From contig JAJYOJ010000007.1 in the NCBI GenBank assembly GCA_021796235.1, forward strand, positions 1 through 49,235: DNA of 49,235 nucleotides, given 5' to 3'. The translations under genes were made by a program, and so were the position numbers. How positions within the stretch are numbered: the first letter of the stretch is position 1; every line of letters begins with the position of its first letter. Shown here piece after piece: positions 20,409 through 25,851 of this stretch. The DNA is from a bacterium. GTDB taxonomy: Bacteria > Patescibacteriota > Microgenomatia > UBA1406 > GWC2-37-13. A model generated the notes under the pieces. It was not told the origin of the DNA. It saw only the letters and a program-made list of their open reading frames with translations, and did not search any database.

Positions 20409-20852
20409 ATGGAAAATGAAAAAGTTATTCATAATTTAGAACCTAAAAGTCTTGGTCAAAGCCTGTCGTTTAAACAATTTTTTAGCGTTTTAATAATTGT
20501 TTTAATTGCAGCTCTAGGTTTAGGATTTGTTGTTAGTAAATTTAAAAACGGCTCTACTTTAACAGGTCAAGCTGGAACAAGCCAGACAAAGGCCACTTCG
20601 GTTGCGGGAGTGCCGGACAAAAGTACATTTAAAGATCAGGCCGAAGGAGTTTTGCAAACTGGAGGAGTAGATGGCGAAGGCAGCTTTCACCTGGACCGTC
20701 CAGGTGGTCAATCACAAAATGTTTACCTGACATCAACGACGGTTGATCTCTCTAAATACGTCGGTAAAAAAGTCAGAGTTTGGGGACAAACCTACCAGGG
20801 AGACAAAGCAGGTTGGCTCATGGACGTTGGATTAGTCGAGATACTACAATAA
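20409..20852 (+). CDS. Membrane-anchored small protein upstream of ftsE
   Basis: A 147-residue protein with a cytoplasmic N-terminus, one membrane helix (about 26-46), a Ser/Thr-rich linker, and a C-terminal domain of about 75 residues. The end of that domain (TTVDLSKYVGKKVRVWGQT) has the beta-strand pattern of an OB-like fold. It is co-transcribed with ftsE (the stop TAA shares one base with the ftsE ATG), so a role near the division complex is possible. I know no characterised homologue. Function is unknown. Confidence 0.6.
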   Translation: MENEKVIHNLEPKSLGQSLSFKQFFSVLIIVLIAALGLGFVVSKFKNGSTLTGQAGTSQTKATSVAGVPDKSTFKDQAEGVLQTGGVDGEGSFHLDRPGGQSQNVYLTSTTVDLSKYVGKKVRVWGQTYQGDKAGWLMDVGLVEILQ

Positions 20853-21529
20853 TGATAGTTTTTGATCACGTAATCAAAAAATACCCTTTGGGTAATATCG
20901 CGCTTGATGACGTCTCATTTAAAATAAACGATAATGAGTTTGTTTTTTTAGTAGGTCCATCCGGAGCAGGAAAGACAACAATTATTAAACTCCTGCTTCG
21001 CGAGATTACTCCAACCAAGGGAACGATTACTTTGGGTGACTTCAATATAGCCGACAAAAAATTTACCAGGATTGAAAACCTACGTAGACAAATAGGAATT
21101 GTTTTTCAGGACTTTAAAATTCTAAACGATAAGAATATTTTTGAAAATGTTTCATTGAGTCTAAGAGTCACCGGTATGCCAAGCGCAACAATTAGAACCG
21201 AAGTAAAGGAGTCGCTCCAATTGGTTGGTCTTTCCGGTAAAGAAAAAGTCTTTCCAGCTCAACTTTCGGCTGGAGAATTGCAACGTGTAGCAATAGCGCG
21301 CGCGATTGTCGGCAACAGAGATATTTTAATCGCAGATGAACCAACCGGTAATCTTGACCCAAAAACCTCCTGGGAAATTATGAAGATTTTCAAAAAAATT
21401 GAAGGGAAAAAAACTATTATAATAGCAACTCATAACAGCGATATCGTCAATAGTCTCAAAAAACGCGTTATCGTTTTAAAAGATGGAAAAATTATAAAAG
21501 ATCTTAAAAAAGGAGGTTATGATTTATGA
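20852..21529 (+). CDS. ftsE: Cell division ATP-binding protein FtsE
   Basis: A 225-residue ABC ATPase. Walker A is GPSGAGKTT, the Q-loop is VFQDFKIL, the signature is QLSAGELQR (LSAGE in place of LSGGQ, common in FtsE), and Walker B is ILIADEPTGNLDP. FtsE pairs with FtsX at the septum to control peptidoglycan hydrolases. The start at 20852 is chosen over a longer frame because MIVFDHVIKKYPLGNIAL is the normal FtsE N-terminus and follows the previous stop directly. It overlaps ftsX by 4 nt. Confidence 0.95.
   Translation: MIVFDHVIKKYPLGNIALDDVSFKINDNEFVFLVGPSGAGKTTIIKLLLREITPTKGTITLGDFNIADKKFTRIENLRRQIGIVFQDFKILNDKNIFENVSLSLRVTGMPSATIRTEVKESLQLVGLSGKEKVFPAQLSAGELQRVAIARAIVGNRDILIADEPTGNLDPKTSWEIMKIFKKIEGKKTIIIATHNSDIVNSLKKRVIVLKDGKIIKDLKKGGYDL
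21511..21517 (+). promoter_or_regulatory. Strong Shine-Dalgarno site of ftsX
   Basis: AGGAGGT lies 8 nt before the ftsX ATG, inside the end of ftsE. It shows that internal operon genes use Shine-Dalgarno initiation, in contrast to the leaderless first genes of this window. Confidence 0.75.
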
Positions 21530-22419
21530 TAGAAGCATTAACTTCCATAAGAAGGACTCCCTATCAGTCGCTTTCGGGATTTTTAGTGCTTTTCCTTACC
21601 CTTTTTTTGTCAACCGGAATTTTTATAATCTTGACATTTCTTTATGGGCTTTTAGGTTATGTTGAAACCCGACCCCAGGTAACAGTATATTTCAAGACCG
21701 ACACCTCTGAAAGCGATATCTTTAAGGTGCGAGAACAACTTATTTCTTCAGGAAAGGTTTTATCGATAAAGTATGTCAATAAACAAGAGGCGTTTAAAGT
21801 TTACCAGCAGTTTACAAAGGATAACCCGCTGCTTCAGCAAATGGTTTCTGCCGATATTTTGCCGGCCTCTTTGGAAATTTACGCCAAACAGCCTGAGTTC
21901 TTACCACAGATTGCCGAGTTTTTAGGAAAGCAGCCAGGAGTGGATGAGGTACAGTTCCAAAAAGATATTGTAAGTAGACTTCTTACTTTAACAAGCATAT
22001 TGCGTAAAACAAGTTTAGTATTATTTGGATTTTTAATTTTGATGTCGATTTTAGTTCTTATTACAATAACACTTTTTAAGATTGCTCTAAAAAAAGATGA
22101 GATTGAACTTCTCAGACTCTTAGGTGCGTCAAATTTTTATATCCAGAAACCGTTTTTACTGGAAGGATTTTTATTTGGTCTTTTTTCATCGCTAACGTCT
22201 TTTCTTATCCTTATAGGTGGACTTTTTTATTTTTATCCCTTTTTAACCTCATATCTTCGAGGTATTCCAGCTTTATCGCTTAACTTGCCTCATTACTCTT
22301 TGCAGGTGTGGCCCCTGAATATAATTTTCCTTTCAGTAACCCTAGTTTTTTCGCTTTTTTTTGGCGTAGGCATCGCCTTCATTTCAGTCCTCATCTCTAC
22401 AGGTAGGTATTTTAAGTAA
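21526..22419 (+). CDS. ftsX: Cell division protein FtsX
   Basis: A 297-residue membrane protein with the FtsX layout. There is an N-terminal helix (about 21-44), an extracellular domain (about 50-160, ETRPQVTVYFKTDTSE...), then three helices in the FtsX/MacB permease part, with IELLRLLGASNFYIQKPFLLEG as the conserved coupling region. Together with FtsE it transmits ATP hydrolysis to a hydrolase outside the membrane. The gene 16 nt downstream encodes an EnvC-like coiled-coil M23 protein, the expected partner. Confidence 0.93.
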   Translation: MIEALTSIRRTPYQSLSGFLVLFLTLFLSTGIFIILTFLYGLLGYVETRPQVTVYFKTDTSESDIFKVREQLISSGKVLSIKYVNKQEAFKVYQQFTKDNPLLQQMVSADILPASLEIYAKQPEFLPQIAEFLGKQPGVDEVQFQKDIVSRLLTLTSILRKTSLVLFGFLILMSILVLITITLFKIALKKDEIELLRLLGASNFYIQKPFLLEGFLFGLFSSLTSFLILIGGLFYFYPFLTSYLRGIPALSLNLPHYSLQVWPLNIIFLSVTLVFSLFFGVGIAFISVLISTGRYFK

Positions 22420-22435: not shown

Positions 22436-23644
22436 ATGGGGAAAATAAAATATATTGCTTATTTTTTTGTGATTTTTTTCTTGGCAGTTTCTGTCTTATT
22501 TCCTCTTTCCCAAAAAACGTTTTCGGTTGATTGCAACACCGACGTTTCCATAAACAGTCTTTCCCAGGCAGACTTACAGACTTTAATAAGCTTGTGTGGC
22601 CAAAAAGTTGCCGACCTACGAAGTCAAGTCAACACTCTTTCTTCGCAAATTCAACTCATGGATACTCAAATCTATTTGACTGAAATTAAAATTCAAAACA
22701 CCCAAAGCCAAATTGAAACAACCCAAAAAGAAATAGATCTCATCGATTCAAGAATTGGCGGCCTAGACTCATCATTAAATATTTTAACCAGAACCTTGAT
22801 TTCAAGGATTATTGAAGACTACAAAAATCACAGCGTTTTAAATGTTTCATTTTTTGAAGTTTTATTTGATAGTGAGAATGCTAATGATTTTTTTACTCGA
22901 CTAAAATATTTACAGACTGCTCAAGAAAATAATCAAAAACTTCTCGTTCAGGTGCAGGAAGCCAAACTAAACTACGAAGACCAGAAAAAACTGAGGGAAG
23001 AGAAAAAGAAAGAACTTGCCGATTTGGTAACAACCTTAAATAATCAACAGGTGGATCTGAAAAACCAACAAGGCGCAAAAAAAAACTTATTAGTAGAGAC
23101 TCAGAATAGTGAAGTAATTTATCAAAACTTGCTTGCGCAGGCTAAAGCGGAATACGCTGCAATTCAAGGAATTATTGCTGGCGCTGGAACCGAGACACGA
23201 TTACGTGACGTTTCCAAAGGTGAAACAATTGGTTCTATTATCTCTGGACCTTCATGTAATTCTAACGGGGCACATTTACATTTTACGGTCGAAATAGGCG
23301 GCTCTACCGTTAATCCTTTTAATTATCTCAAACCTGTGGATCATACCGATGATTCTGGAGGAGACGCCTGGACTCCTTCTGGAAGTTGGGACTGGCCAGT
23401 TAATCCTCCAATCCAATTTAATCAAGGCTATGGAATTACGTGGTTCGTAAACACATACCATTGGTATCCTTTTCACAATGGAATTGACATAGATGGCACA
23501 TCGTATGAAGTTCATTCTGTTGCAGATGGAACATTATATAGGGGAAGTTACTCAGGTAATGGTGGCTGTGCTCTCCCTTATGCAAAAGTTGTTCATAAAG
23601 ATAGTAACATTTCTACTCTTTATCTTCATGTGTACGTTCAATGA
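22436..23644 (+). CDS. EnvC-like coiled-coil protein with circularly permuted M23 peptidase domain
   Basis: A 402-residue exported protein. The N-terminal signal/anchor is at about 6-24 and a long coiled coil at about 55-245, as in EnvC and PcsB. The C-terminal part has all M23 (LytM) zinc and catalytic motifs but in swapped order. The GAHLHFTVEIGGSTVNPFNYL block (HxH at 280/282) comes first. It is followed by the domain start WDWPVNPPIQFNQGYG, then HNGID (His347, Asp351), VADGTLYRG, and finally STLYLHVYV with His398 near the terminus. Normal order ends with HxH. The protein likely cuts peptidoglycan cross-links under FtsEX control, or activates an amidase. Confidence 0.8.
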   Translation: MGKIKYIAYFFVIFFLAVSVLFPLSQKTFSVDCNTDVSINSLSQADLQTLISLCGQKVADLRSQVNTLSSQIQLMDTQIYLTEIKIQNTQSQIETTQKEIDLIDSRIGGLDSSLNILTRTLISRIIEDYKNHSVLNVSFFEVLFDSENANDFFTRLKYLQTAQENNQKLLVQVQEAKLNYEDQKKLREEKKKELADLVTTLNNQQVDLKNQQGAKKNLLVETQNSEVIYQNLLAQAKAEYAAIQGIIAGAGTETRLRDVSKGETIGSIISGPSCNSNGAHLHFTVEIGGSTVNPFNYLKPVDHTDDSGGDAWTPSGSWDWPVNPPIQFNQGYGITWFVNTYHWYPFHNGIDIDGTSYEVHSVADGTLYRGSYSGNGGCALPYAKVVHKDSNISTLYLHVYVQ

Positions 23645-23704: not shown

Positions 23705-24949
23705 ATGTCTAAAGGCATCTTGGTTGTTTTGCTGTTTCTTATTTGTTTTATCTATAAATCGAAACGAGCTTACGCAGTAATAACGACAATCAATAGTTAT
23801 CCCCAAAGCATTTCTAATGAGCCTTTTACTGTCGATGTCACAATAACCGGTGCTGTAACTGGCACGAATTATCTTCGTATAGATCTTTACAAAACAGACA
23901 CAACAAACTATTTTGGTGAAACGTTTAACAGCAAAGATTGGTATGGAGAAAATGATTACCTCCAATATCTTCCTATAACGATACAGTCAGGAATACCCTG
24001 GTCTGGTCAGATCCAGGCCCGAGTCGGTAATCCTTCCGAAACGCAATATGAAACAACCAGCCAGTATAAATTAAAAATTCGAAGATACACATCATCTGGT
24101 AGTTATAACGCAATCGAAACCAATACAAGTGCTGTTGATGTAAATATAAACATAATTCCAACCCCAACTCTCTTTCCTACAGAAACTCCAGCGATAACCG
24201 AGCTGCCAACGCCTACCCAAGAAACAGCGCTGCAATCCTATAATAATGTTTACATTTCCGAGGCAATGGTCTTTCCCTCCAAAGATGAAAATGAATGGGT
24301 TGAGATTTATAACGATAATGATTTTGTAGTTTATCTTAACGGCTGGTTTATTGATGACATCGAAGAAGGTGGATCTGTACCAAAGTCTATAGATTTCAGT
24401 ATCGAACCGAAATCTTTTGCTATTTTTGAACAAAGTAATGCGATGTTTAATAATAGTGGTGACAGTATTAGGCTTTTGGACTTCAATAAAACTTTTATTG
24501 ACGGTTTTGAATACGGGTCTGCAGTTCAGGGAAAAACTTTTGGCAGAAGAGGATTCGATTCGGATGAATTCTGTCTACAGGAGCCAAGTCGGAATGCCGC
24601 AAATAATCCATGTATAAATCCGACTGAAACGCCAGTCCCAACAACTAAACAATCACCTACCTTCAAACCAACGCCGATACCATCTCCTACTCAGTTATTA
24701 ATGACCCCCAGCACATCGGGTCCCAGAAAGAAAACCTTAAATACTGCATTTATTAAAACTCCAATGAATCGATTCATTGGAGTAACTACAAAAAAAACAT
24801 CTGAGAGCACTGACTCAGGAAATGTCCTGGGCATAGAAACAGATGATGCTTCTCATAATAAAGCTCTTATTAAATCGCTTTCTATTATTTCCTTTTCCTA
24901 CTCACTTTTGACAATTATTGGAATCTTGCTTAAAATGAAAGTAGGATAA
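23705..24949 (+). CDS. Exported lamin-tail-domain surface protein
   Basis: A 414-residue protein with an N-terminal signal peptide (about 1-24, ending near AYA). Next comes a beta-rich domain (25-150) of unknown type and a Pro/Thr-rich linker. A lamin tail domain lies at about 182-290 (VYISEAMVFPSKDENEWVEIYND, GWFIDDIEEGG, GDSIRLLD). A second Pro/Thr linker and a C-terminal membrane helix (about 390-410) follow. The design is that of a cell-wall-spanning, membrane-anchored surface protein. LTD domains in bacteria are thought to mediate binding; the ligand is unknown. Confidence 0.7.
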   Translation: MSKGILVVLLFLICFIYKSKRAYAVITTINSYPQSISNEPFTVDVTITGAVTGTNYLRIDLYKTDTTNYFGETFNSKDWYGENDYLQYLPITIQSGIPWSGQIQARVGNPSETQYETTSQYKLKIRRYTSSGSYNAIETNTSAVDVNINIIPTPTLFPTETPAITELPTPTQETALQSYNNVYISEAMVFPSKDENEWVEIYNDNDFVVYLNGWFIDDIEEGGSVPKSIDFSIEPKSFAIFEQSNAMFNNSGDSIRLLDFNKTFIDGFEYGSAVQGKTFGRRGFDSDEFCLQEPSRNAANNPCINPTETPVPTTKQSPTFKPTPIPSPTQLLMTPSTSGPRKKTLNTAFIKTPMNRFIGVTTKKTSESTDSGNVLGIETDDASHNKALIKSLSIISFSYSLLTIIGILLKMKVG

Positions 24950-24954
24950 TACCT

Positions 24955-25851
24955 ATGAGTAAACTGTTAAATTTCTTACATCATTTTTTTGTTCCGAGAG
25001 AAGAGAACAACTTCCAGGCTCGATCGCTTCATACGGATTTTTTAAGCTTTTATCTTGTGCTGGCGATACTTATTGCCTTTTCTTTTCATTATTTGGATAG
25101 CCATTTCTCAAACGTTTTAGGTTTTGCTACCGATATAACCATTAATAAACTCTATGCACTAACTAATCAGGAGCGTGAACAAAATGGATTGTCAGATCTC
25201 ACTTATAATGAAGAATTGGCAACGGCCGCAGCTAAAAAAGCGCAGGATATGTTCGCTAAAAATTACTGGTCGCATTATGGTCCGGAGGGTGAAACTCCTT
25301 GGGATTTTATACTAGCTTCAGGCTACAGGTATCAATACGCCGGTGAAAATCTTGCTAAAAATTTCCTATTTTCCCAAGGAGTTATGGATGCCTGGATGAA
25401 CTCTACTTCTCATAAAGAGAATATTCTGCAAAAAAACTATACTGATGTTGGCTTTGCGGTTGTCAATGGGGTTTTGAATGGTGAAGAAACAACCTTGGTT
25501 GTTCAAATGTTTGGGAGACCTCAAACTATTGCCGCAGCCCAACTTCCGAAAAACAATACTCCGCAACCTGCAACTTCCGTAGTTCAACCAACTGTTGCAG
25601 TTGCGGCTGCTCAACAACCGGCTACGGTTCTAGCTAAAGAAAGTTCAGGAACAGGTTTAACCGCAGCTTCAGTTTCTTTAAACATGAATCTTATCTTCCT
25701 TATGTTCTTACTGGTTGCAATATTTATGGATATCTATTTTGCCGCAAAATTCAAGGTTATAAGAATCACGGGAAAACATTTGGCACATTTCATATTCATA
25801 TTTTTTATCCTAGCCGGCATATTAGTTTTCACGAAAGGTACTATTCTTTAA
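24955..25851 (+). CDS. CAP/SCP-domain extracellular protein
   Basis: A 298-residue protein. A membrane helix at about 33-52 is followed by a CAP (SCP/PR-1-like) domain at about 65-185: LTNQEREQNGLSDLTYNEELATAAAKKAQDM, then the signature segments YWSHYGPEGETPWDF, AGENLAKNF, WMNSTSHKENILQKNYTDVGF. A Pro/Gln/Ala/Val linker and two more C-terminal helices (about 240-258, 270-295) follow. It is exported and anchored at the cell surface. Bacterial CAP domains bind lipids or act in wall metabolism in some cases; the role here is unknown. Confidence 0.8.
   Translation: MSKLLNFLHHFFVPREENNFQARSLHTDFLSFYLVLAILIAFSFHYLDSHFSNVLGFATDITINKLYALTNQEREQNGLSDLTYNEELATAAAKKAQDMFAKNYWSHYGPEGETPWDFILASGYRYQYAGENLAKNFLFSQGVMDAWMNSTSHKENILQKNYTDVGFAVVNGVLNGEETTLVVQMFGRPQTIAAAQLPKNNTPQPATSVVQPTVAVAAAQQPATVLAKESSGTGLTAASVSLNMNLIFLMFLLVAIFMDIYFAAKFKVIRITGKHLAHFIFIFFILAGILVFTKGTIL

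Follow-up and report, generated by a model that had tools for sequence, protein, structure and literature searches.

The locus examined here raises two questions: whether an M23 (LytM) peptidase domain can exist in nature with its two halves exchanged along the chain, and what such a domain would do beside the division complex FtsEX. Few wall hydrolases have been studied as closely as the M23/LytM domains, but to our knowledge no natural circular permutant of them is known, and we found no published description of a permuted M23 domain in the open-access literature. The window, which is the whole stretch of 49,235 nucleotides that was analysed, comes from a member of the candidate phyla radiation (CPR/Patescibacteria). 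It encodes a 402-residue protein directly after ftsE and ftsX, and the start of ftsX overlaps ftsE by 4 bases. An earlier note on this DNA had placed ftsE-ftsX directly upstream, and the profile matches of both genes bear this out.

20843-21529, + strand: ftsE, ATPase of the FtsEX mechanotransmitter (TIGR02673 FtsE, 255 bits, cut-off 264.85; PF00005)
21526-22419, + strand: ftsX (PF18075 FtsX_ECD, 62.2 bits, and PF02687, 36.3 bits, both above cut-off)
22436-23644, + strand: permuted-M23 coiled-coil ORF, 402 amino acids, TGA stop

Downstream of this ORF, the region 23705-25851 of the window encodes a Lamin Tail Domain protein and a CAP/YkwD-family secreted protein; the latter matches the model of the divisome-associated lipoprotein DalA below cut-off.

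Profile comparisons and an alignment with a solved M23 chain confirm that the C-terminal third of the 402-residue protein is a circularly permuted M23 (LytM) peptidase domain, as the earlier note had proposed. A residue check of the ORF reproduced the motif positions and the swapped order given there: H280-L-H282 with VNPFNYL (to residue 297), a linker, W318-D-W-P, QGYG, H347-N-G-I-D351 and then Y396-L-H398. The order is thus HxH, HxxxD, YxH instead of the HxxxD, YxH, HxH of the M23 family, which makes the domain a permuted variant of that family.

23195-23326, + strand: half B, residues 254-297, with the strand V..G..I, the pre-HxH loop, the HxH strand and VNPFNYL; the part with which an M23 domain usually ends (PF01551 positions 62-96, half-domain HMM)
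23327-23386, + strand: linker, residues 298-317, between what were originally the C- and N-termini (spacing across 74 homologues)
23387-23629, + strand: half A, residues 318-398, WDWP..QGYG..HNGID..GTLY..YLH; the part with which an M23 domain usually starts (rotated PF01551 match, half-domain HMM, 9gy1)

The native sequence matches PF01551 in two stretches with 32.3 bits, over the cut-off of 28.7, and the best stretch (residues 258-294), which is the earlier one in the chain, corresponds to profile positions 62-96, the end of the domain. When the halves were exchanged in silico, the match became continuous, covering positions 3-96 of 96 with 39.2 bits. Similarly, the solved M23 structure 9gy1 aligns in swapped order, with query residues 342-400 on chain residues 37-92 and query residues 259-299 on chain residues 102-141. 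Once rotated, the domain is like other M23/LytM metallopeptidases (PF01551, 9gy1) in its zinc-ligand and catalytic positions and along most of the profile, but differs from them in its swapped halves, in the linker between the old termini and in a chain that ends at the YxH histidine. For a canonical M23 reference profile we used half of the canonical proteins and kept the other half as controls; rotated and native sequences were both scored against it. Rotation raised the best single-domain score in 74 of 74 permuted ORFs (median 38.95 to 76.35 bits), whereas it lowered the score of the held-out canonical proteins from 161.1 to 76.8 bits and improved it in none of 46. A six-frame PF01551 scan of the window's own genome recovered only half of the permuted domain, below cut-off, and missed a second permuted copy.

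The same order recurs in other genomes. The earlier note had suggested a search for homologues with this motif order; using profiles of both halves made from a 20-row alignment, we typed the order in every locus examined and found 74 homologous ORFs with the permuted order. Two of these loci, L007 and L055, agree exactly in their coil rows and lie on contigs of the same length, so they probably represent a single genome sampled twice. The median identity between representatives of the permuted domain is 34%, and such low identity with a kept active site points to selection rather than recent copying. The spacing from residue 297 to W320 ranges from 5 to 30 residues across the 74 homologues. 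These data bear on the reading that an assembly error or frameshift has thrown two broken M23 pieces into one ORF. The window's genome is indeed a draft assembly of 21 contigs (96% complete), and the oddness of the domain is confined to its order. However, all 74 ORFs, from many genomes, share this order and stop at the same place with TAA, TAG or TGA, and within the window no half-B motif lies downstream of the ORF in any frame. We therefore rejected chance, assembly error and frameshift, and give an artefact of this kind a negligible probability. Among the loci examined, no single ORF had the A-B-A-B or B-A-B arrangement of a tandem intermediate.

If the permuted domain is a working peptidase, its zinc site and catalytic histidines should be kept. 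From established knowledge of LytM, we take H282, H347 and D351 to be the zinc ligands and H280 and H398 to be catalytic. All five positions (HHHDH) are present here, as had been claimed, and are complete in 67 of the 74 homologues.

23273-23275, + strand: H280, first His of HxH, catalytic; kept in 74 of 74
23279-23281, + strand: H282, second His of HxH, zinc ligand; kept in 72 of 74
23474-23476, + strand: H347, zinc ligand; kept in 70 of 74
23486-23488, + strand: D351, zinc ligand; kept in 74 of 74
23627-23629, + strand: H398 of YxH, catalytic; kept in 73 of 73 where the sequence is present

H398 stands 4 residues before the C-terminus, and 2-5 residues follow the YxH histidine in 71 of 73 homologues. 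Because the catalytic H398 is so close to the chain end, the new termini would lie near the active site, in agreement with the earlier prediction. Four permuted members (L227, L231, L232 and L242) lack the zinc ligand equivalent to H347, with P, G, R and P, respectively, in its place, and these proteins are possibly inactive activators.

We then considered whether the exchanged halves would close into a single domain. The structure prediction that the earlier note had called for gave one compact unit: the AlphaFold model of the isolated domain has a pTM of 0.80 and a mean pLDDT of 79, values too high to be expected of two unanchored halves. When the isolated domain was searched with Foldseek and VIA, both of which are order-dependent aligners, no M23 chain was among the matches listed; this is expected for a permuted fold, yet a mis-modelled domain would look alike. 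A different way for the halves to meet is a domain-swapped oligomer, in which half A is complemented by half B from a partner chain and an active enzyme would form only on assembly. The B-linker-A order would permit swapping, many members have linkers of up to 30 residues, and a self-inhibited dimer of PcsB is known (PMC11627006). We nevertheless consider such swapping improbable, given that the linker has only 5-8 residues in eleven members and that the single chain is itself predicted to be one compact domain with a pTM of 0.80.

A single-chain domain of this kind might be further held together by a cysteine pair.

23255-23257, + strand: C274, pre-HxH loop; may form a disulfide with C378 (Cys counts in 74 homologues)
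23567-23569, + strand: C378, half-A hairpin; may form a disulfide with C274 (Cys counts in 74 homologues)

The total number of cysteines is even in all 74 permuted homologues. One cysteine in the pre-HxH loop together with one in the half-A hairpin occurs in 56 of the 74, compared to none of 89 canonical comparators, although this pairing reflects about two evolutionary changes on the tree, too few for a phylogenetic test. The pattern is suggestive of a disulfide staple that would tie the pre-HxH loop to the half-A hairpin, and to that extent it speaks, independently of the model, for contact between the halves. VKOR, a candidate disulfide oxidant, was not found in the window's genome.

The remainder of the protein resembles the coiled-coil partners of FtsX.

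22445-22498, + strand: N-terminal hydrophobic helix, residues 4-21, putative signal peptide or membrane anchor (predicted helix, hydrophobic sequence)
22565-23182, + strand: coiled coil, putatively of the FtsX-binding type, residues 44-249 (AlphaFold model, profile and structural matches)

In the AlphaFold model, helix 4-21 is followed by a low-confidence stretch, and the coil is predicted to be antiparallel, its two long helices (44-130 and 149-249) being connected through short ones. The EnvC profile matches residues 46-257, and CC_PcsB (PF24568) matches the coil with 23.6 bits, just under cut-off. The top PDB matches of the full-length model are 8tzl (full-length EnvC with FtsEX) and 6tpi (EnvC with the periplasmic domain of FtsX). 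A VIA search with the full-length model, which informs on the coil only, had as its top matches RipA, Cg1735 and the EnvC of FtsEX-EnvC, at Z 11.8-11.9, where a Z below 13 can be generic for long helices. With the second coil helix ending at residue 249 and the domain's first strand beginning at 254, the model has no separate arm or long linker between the two, unlike EnvC, PcsB and RipC. The description 'EnvC-like' in the earlier note holds for the coil, but seems less apt for the function: the catalytic residues are kept, and we found no Amidase_3 (PF01520) in 48 of 54 genomes searched, including the window's own.

Which of the known FtsEX partners is the better guide to function? The catalytic domain of CwlO is NlpC/P60. 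PcsB and RipC have cysteine-dependent CHAP and NlpC/P60 domains, respectively (PMC11627006). FtsEX systems with coils of this kind work by mechanotransmission: ATP hydrolysis by FtsE moves FtsX, the coil relays the movement, and the hydrolase or activator is freed from autoinhibition (PMC7668044, PMC11627006). The LytM domain of EnvC has the canonical order, is without catalytic residues and activates AmiA/AmiB (PMC7668044). The 402-residue protein is like EnvC of E. coli and V. cholerae in its two-helix coiled coil and C-terminal LytM-type domain, here with its gene adjacent to ftsX, but its domain is permuted and keeps all of the catalytic residues, whereas that of EnvC is canonical in order and catalytically dead. 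With PcsB, CwlO and RipC it shares a coiled coil followed by a catalytic C-terminal domain, theirs being under FtsEX control (PMC11627006), and it has a permuted zinc peptidase in place of the CHAP and NlpC/P60 domains of PcsB and RipC.

A second permuted copy is present in the window's genome (L035:3035-4312, on contig C9 of G000) and is 54% identical. Its HLH has become HTP, with the loss of a zinc ligand, and ftsX is not nearby; its neighbours resemble a metal-handling island, with P-type ATPase, cupredoxin-like and thioredoxin-like genes.

The protein might instead be an activator like EnvC, with little or no catalytic activity of its own, and serve to open another hydrolase. EnvC is its closest full-length structural match, degenerate LytM activators are common, and the paralogue just described is without one zinc ligand. 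Nevertheless, we regard this reading as unlikely, since the five zinc and catalytic residues are kept here and in 67 of the 74 homologues, no Amidase_3 target was found in the organism's own genome, and relatives carry C39-like or CHAP domains in the same slot, which makes a catalytic role likelier. Retention of all catalytic residues, together with the lack of a detectable Amidase_3, places the protein functionally with PcsB and RipC, and by analogy the PcsB/CwlO/RipC group appears to be a better parallel than an EnvC-type activator.

Exchange of catalytic domains on FtsEX coils is known between phyla (EnvC, PcsB, RipC), and in our comparison it appears within one family. Many relatives in the window's family keep the coil and the neighbouring ftsX but carry a C39-like cysteine peptidase domain instead (PF13529, 47 bits in one relative; loci L016, L017, L020-L022, L024-L030, L036-L040, L042-L044, L048 and L051-L054). 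The coil tree (87 rows) contains at least three changes between M23 and C39, with permuted M23 rows nested inside a C39 clade. Elsewhere in the phylum, the slot after ftsX has CHAP, C39 or canonical M23, and two genomes of one family with otherwise equal operons differ in having canonical M23 (L239) or CHAP (L240). C39-type and permuted M23-type coil proteins also adjoin each other downstream of ftsX at L242:2867-5493. At two loci of one genome (L014 and L049, G011) the coils are very similar and the permuted M23 domains clearly different, with both loci cut by contig ends; such a pair may reflect recent exchange of the domain where it meets the coil.

The permuted form is not peculiar to the window's gene, and the matches support its conservation across many families of the candidate phyla. 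Within the stretches examined, ftsX lies upstream of 64 of the 74 permuted ORFs, while three others run off the contig. L007, without ftsX in its stretch, is apparently the same gene as that of L055, for which a wider stretch includes ftsX, and for six others ftsX is not nearby (L019, L032, L033, L034, L035 and L236). A permuted match spanning both halves occurs in about 85 of 380 genomes of the phylum and in about 125 of 187 genomes (about two thirds) of the window's class. Among the matches listed from 84,980 species genomes, all 12 Patescibacteria loci are permuted, compared to none of 68 non-CPR loci, 65 of which are canonical and 3 of which have a single half detected. Viral contigs gave partial matches only. 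In a tree of rotated and canonical domains, 57 permuted rows, including the window's, fall in one supported set, and a single origin of the permutation is not rejected. At L235, ftsX precedes a tandem pair of coiled-coil M23 genes, the first permuted and the second canonical, which is a possible clue to the origin of the permutation. In Clostridia (L066, L074, L075, L076, L085, L095 and L126), both members of the tandem coiled-coil M23 pair behind ftsX are canonical.

We conclude that the 402-residue protein is very probably an FtsEX-controlled septal peptidoglycan hydrolase with a stably permuted, catalytically competent M23 endopeptidase. ATP hydrolysis by FtsE would move the extracytoplasmic domain of FtsX, which would work on the coiled coil such that the zinc M23 endopeptidase is released or opened and cuts peptidoglycan cross-links at the septum. 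In the permutant, the linker connects the old C- and N-termini, and the break in the chain falls in the loop behind the YxH strand; the coil enters the domain at the strand leading to HxH, the chain ends on the catalytic histidine, and a disulfide from the pre-HxH loop to the half-A hairpin probably ties the two halves. As the modelled coil feeds the HxH strand, from helix end 249 to strand start 254, the force of the coil may act rather directly on the active site and gating may be altered. Much more tentatively, the permuted, disulfide-stapled M23 domain could be an old and widespread CPR innovation that was fixed at the FtsEX slot because a coil joined straight to the HxH strand would let FtsEX act mechanically on the active site, instead of through the removal of a restraining arm, although we doubt this more than we favor it.

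Searches with profiles and structures that depend on order under-report the division hydrolases of CPR bacteria. The occurrence of the permutant across much of a deep bacterial radiation would provide a natural test case for force transmission from FtsEX to a hydrolase, one in which the attachment point may have moved from the edge of the domain to a strand of the active site.
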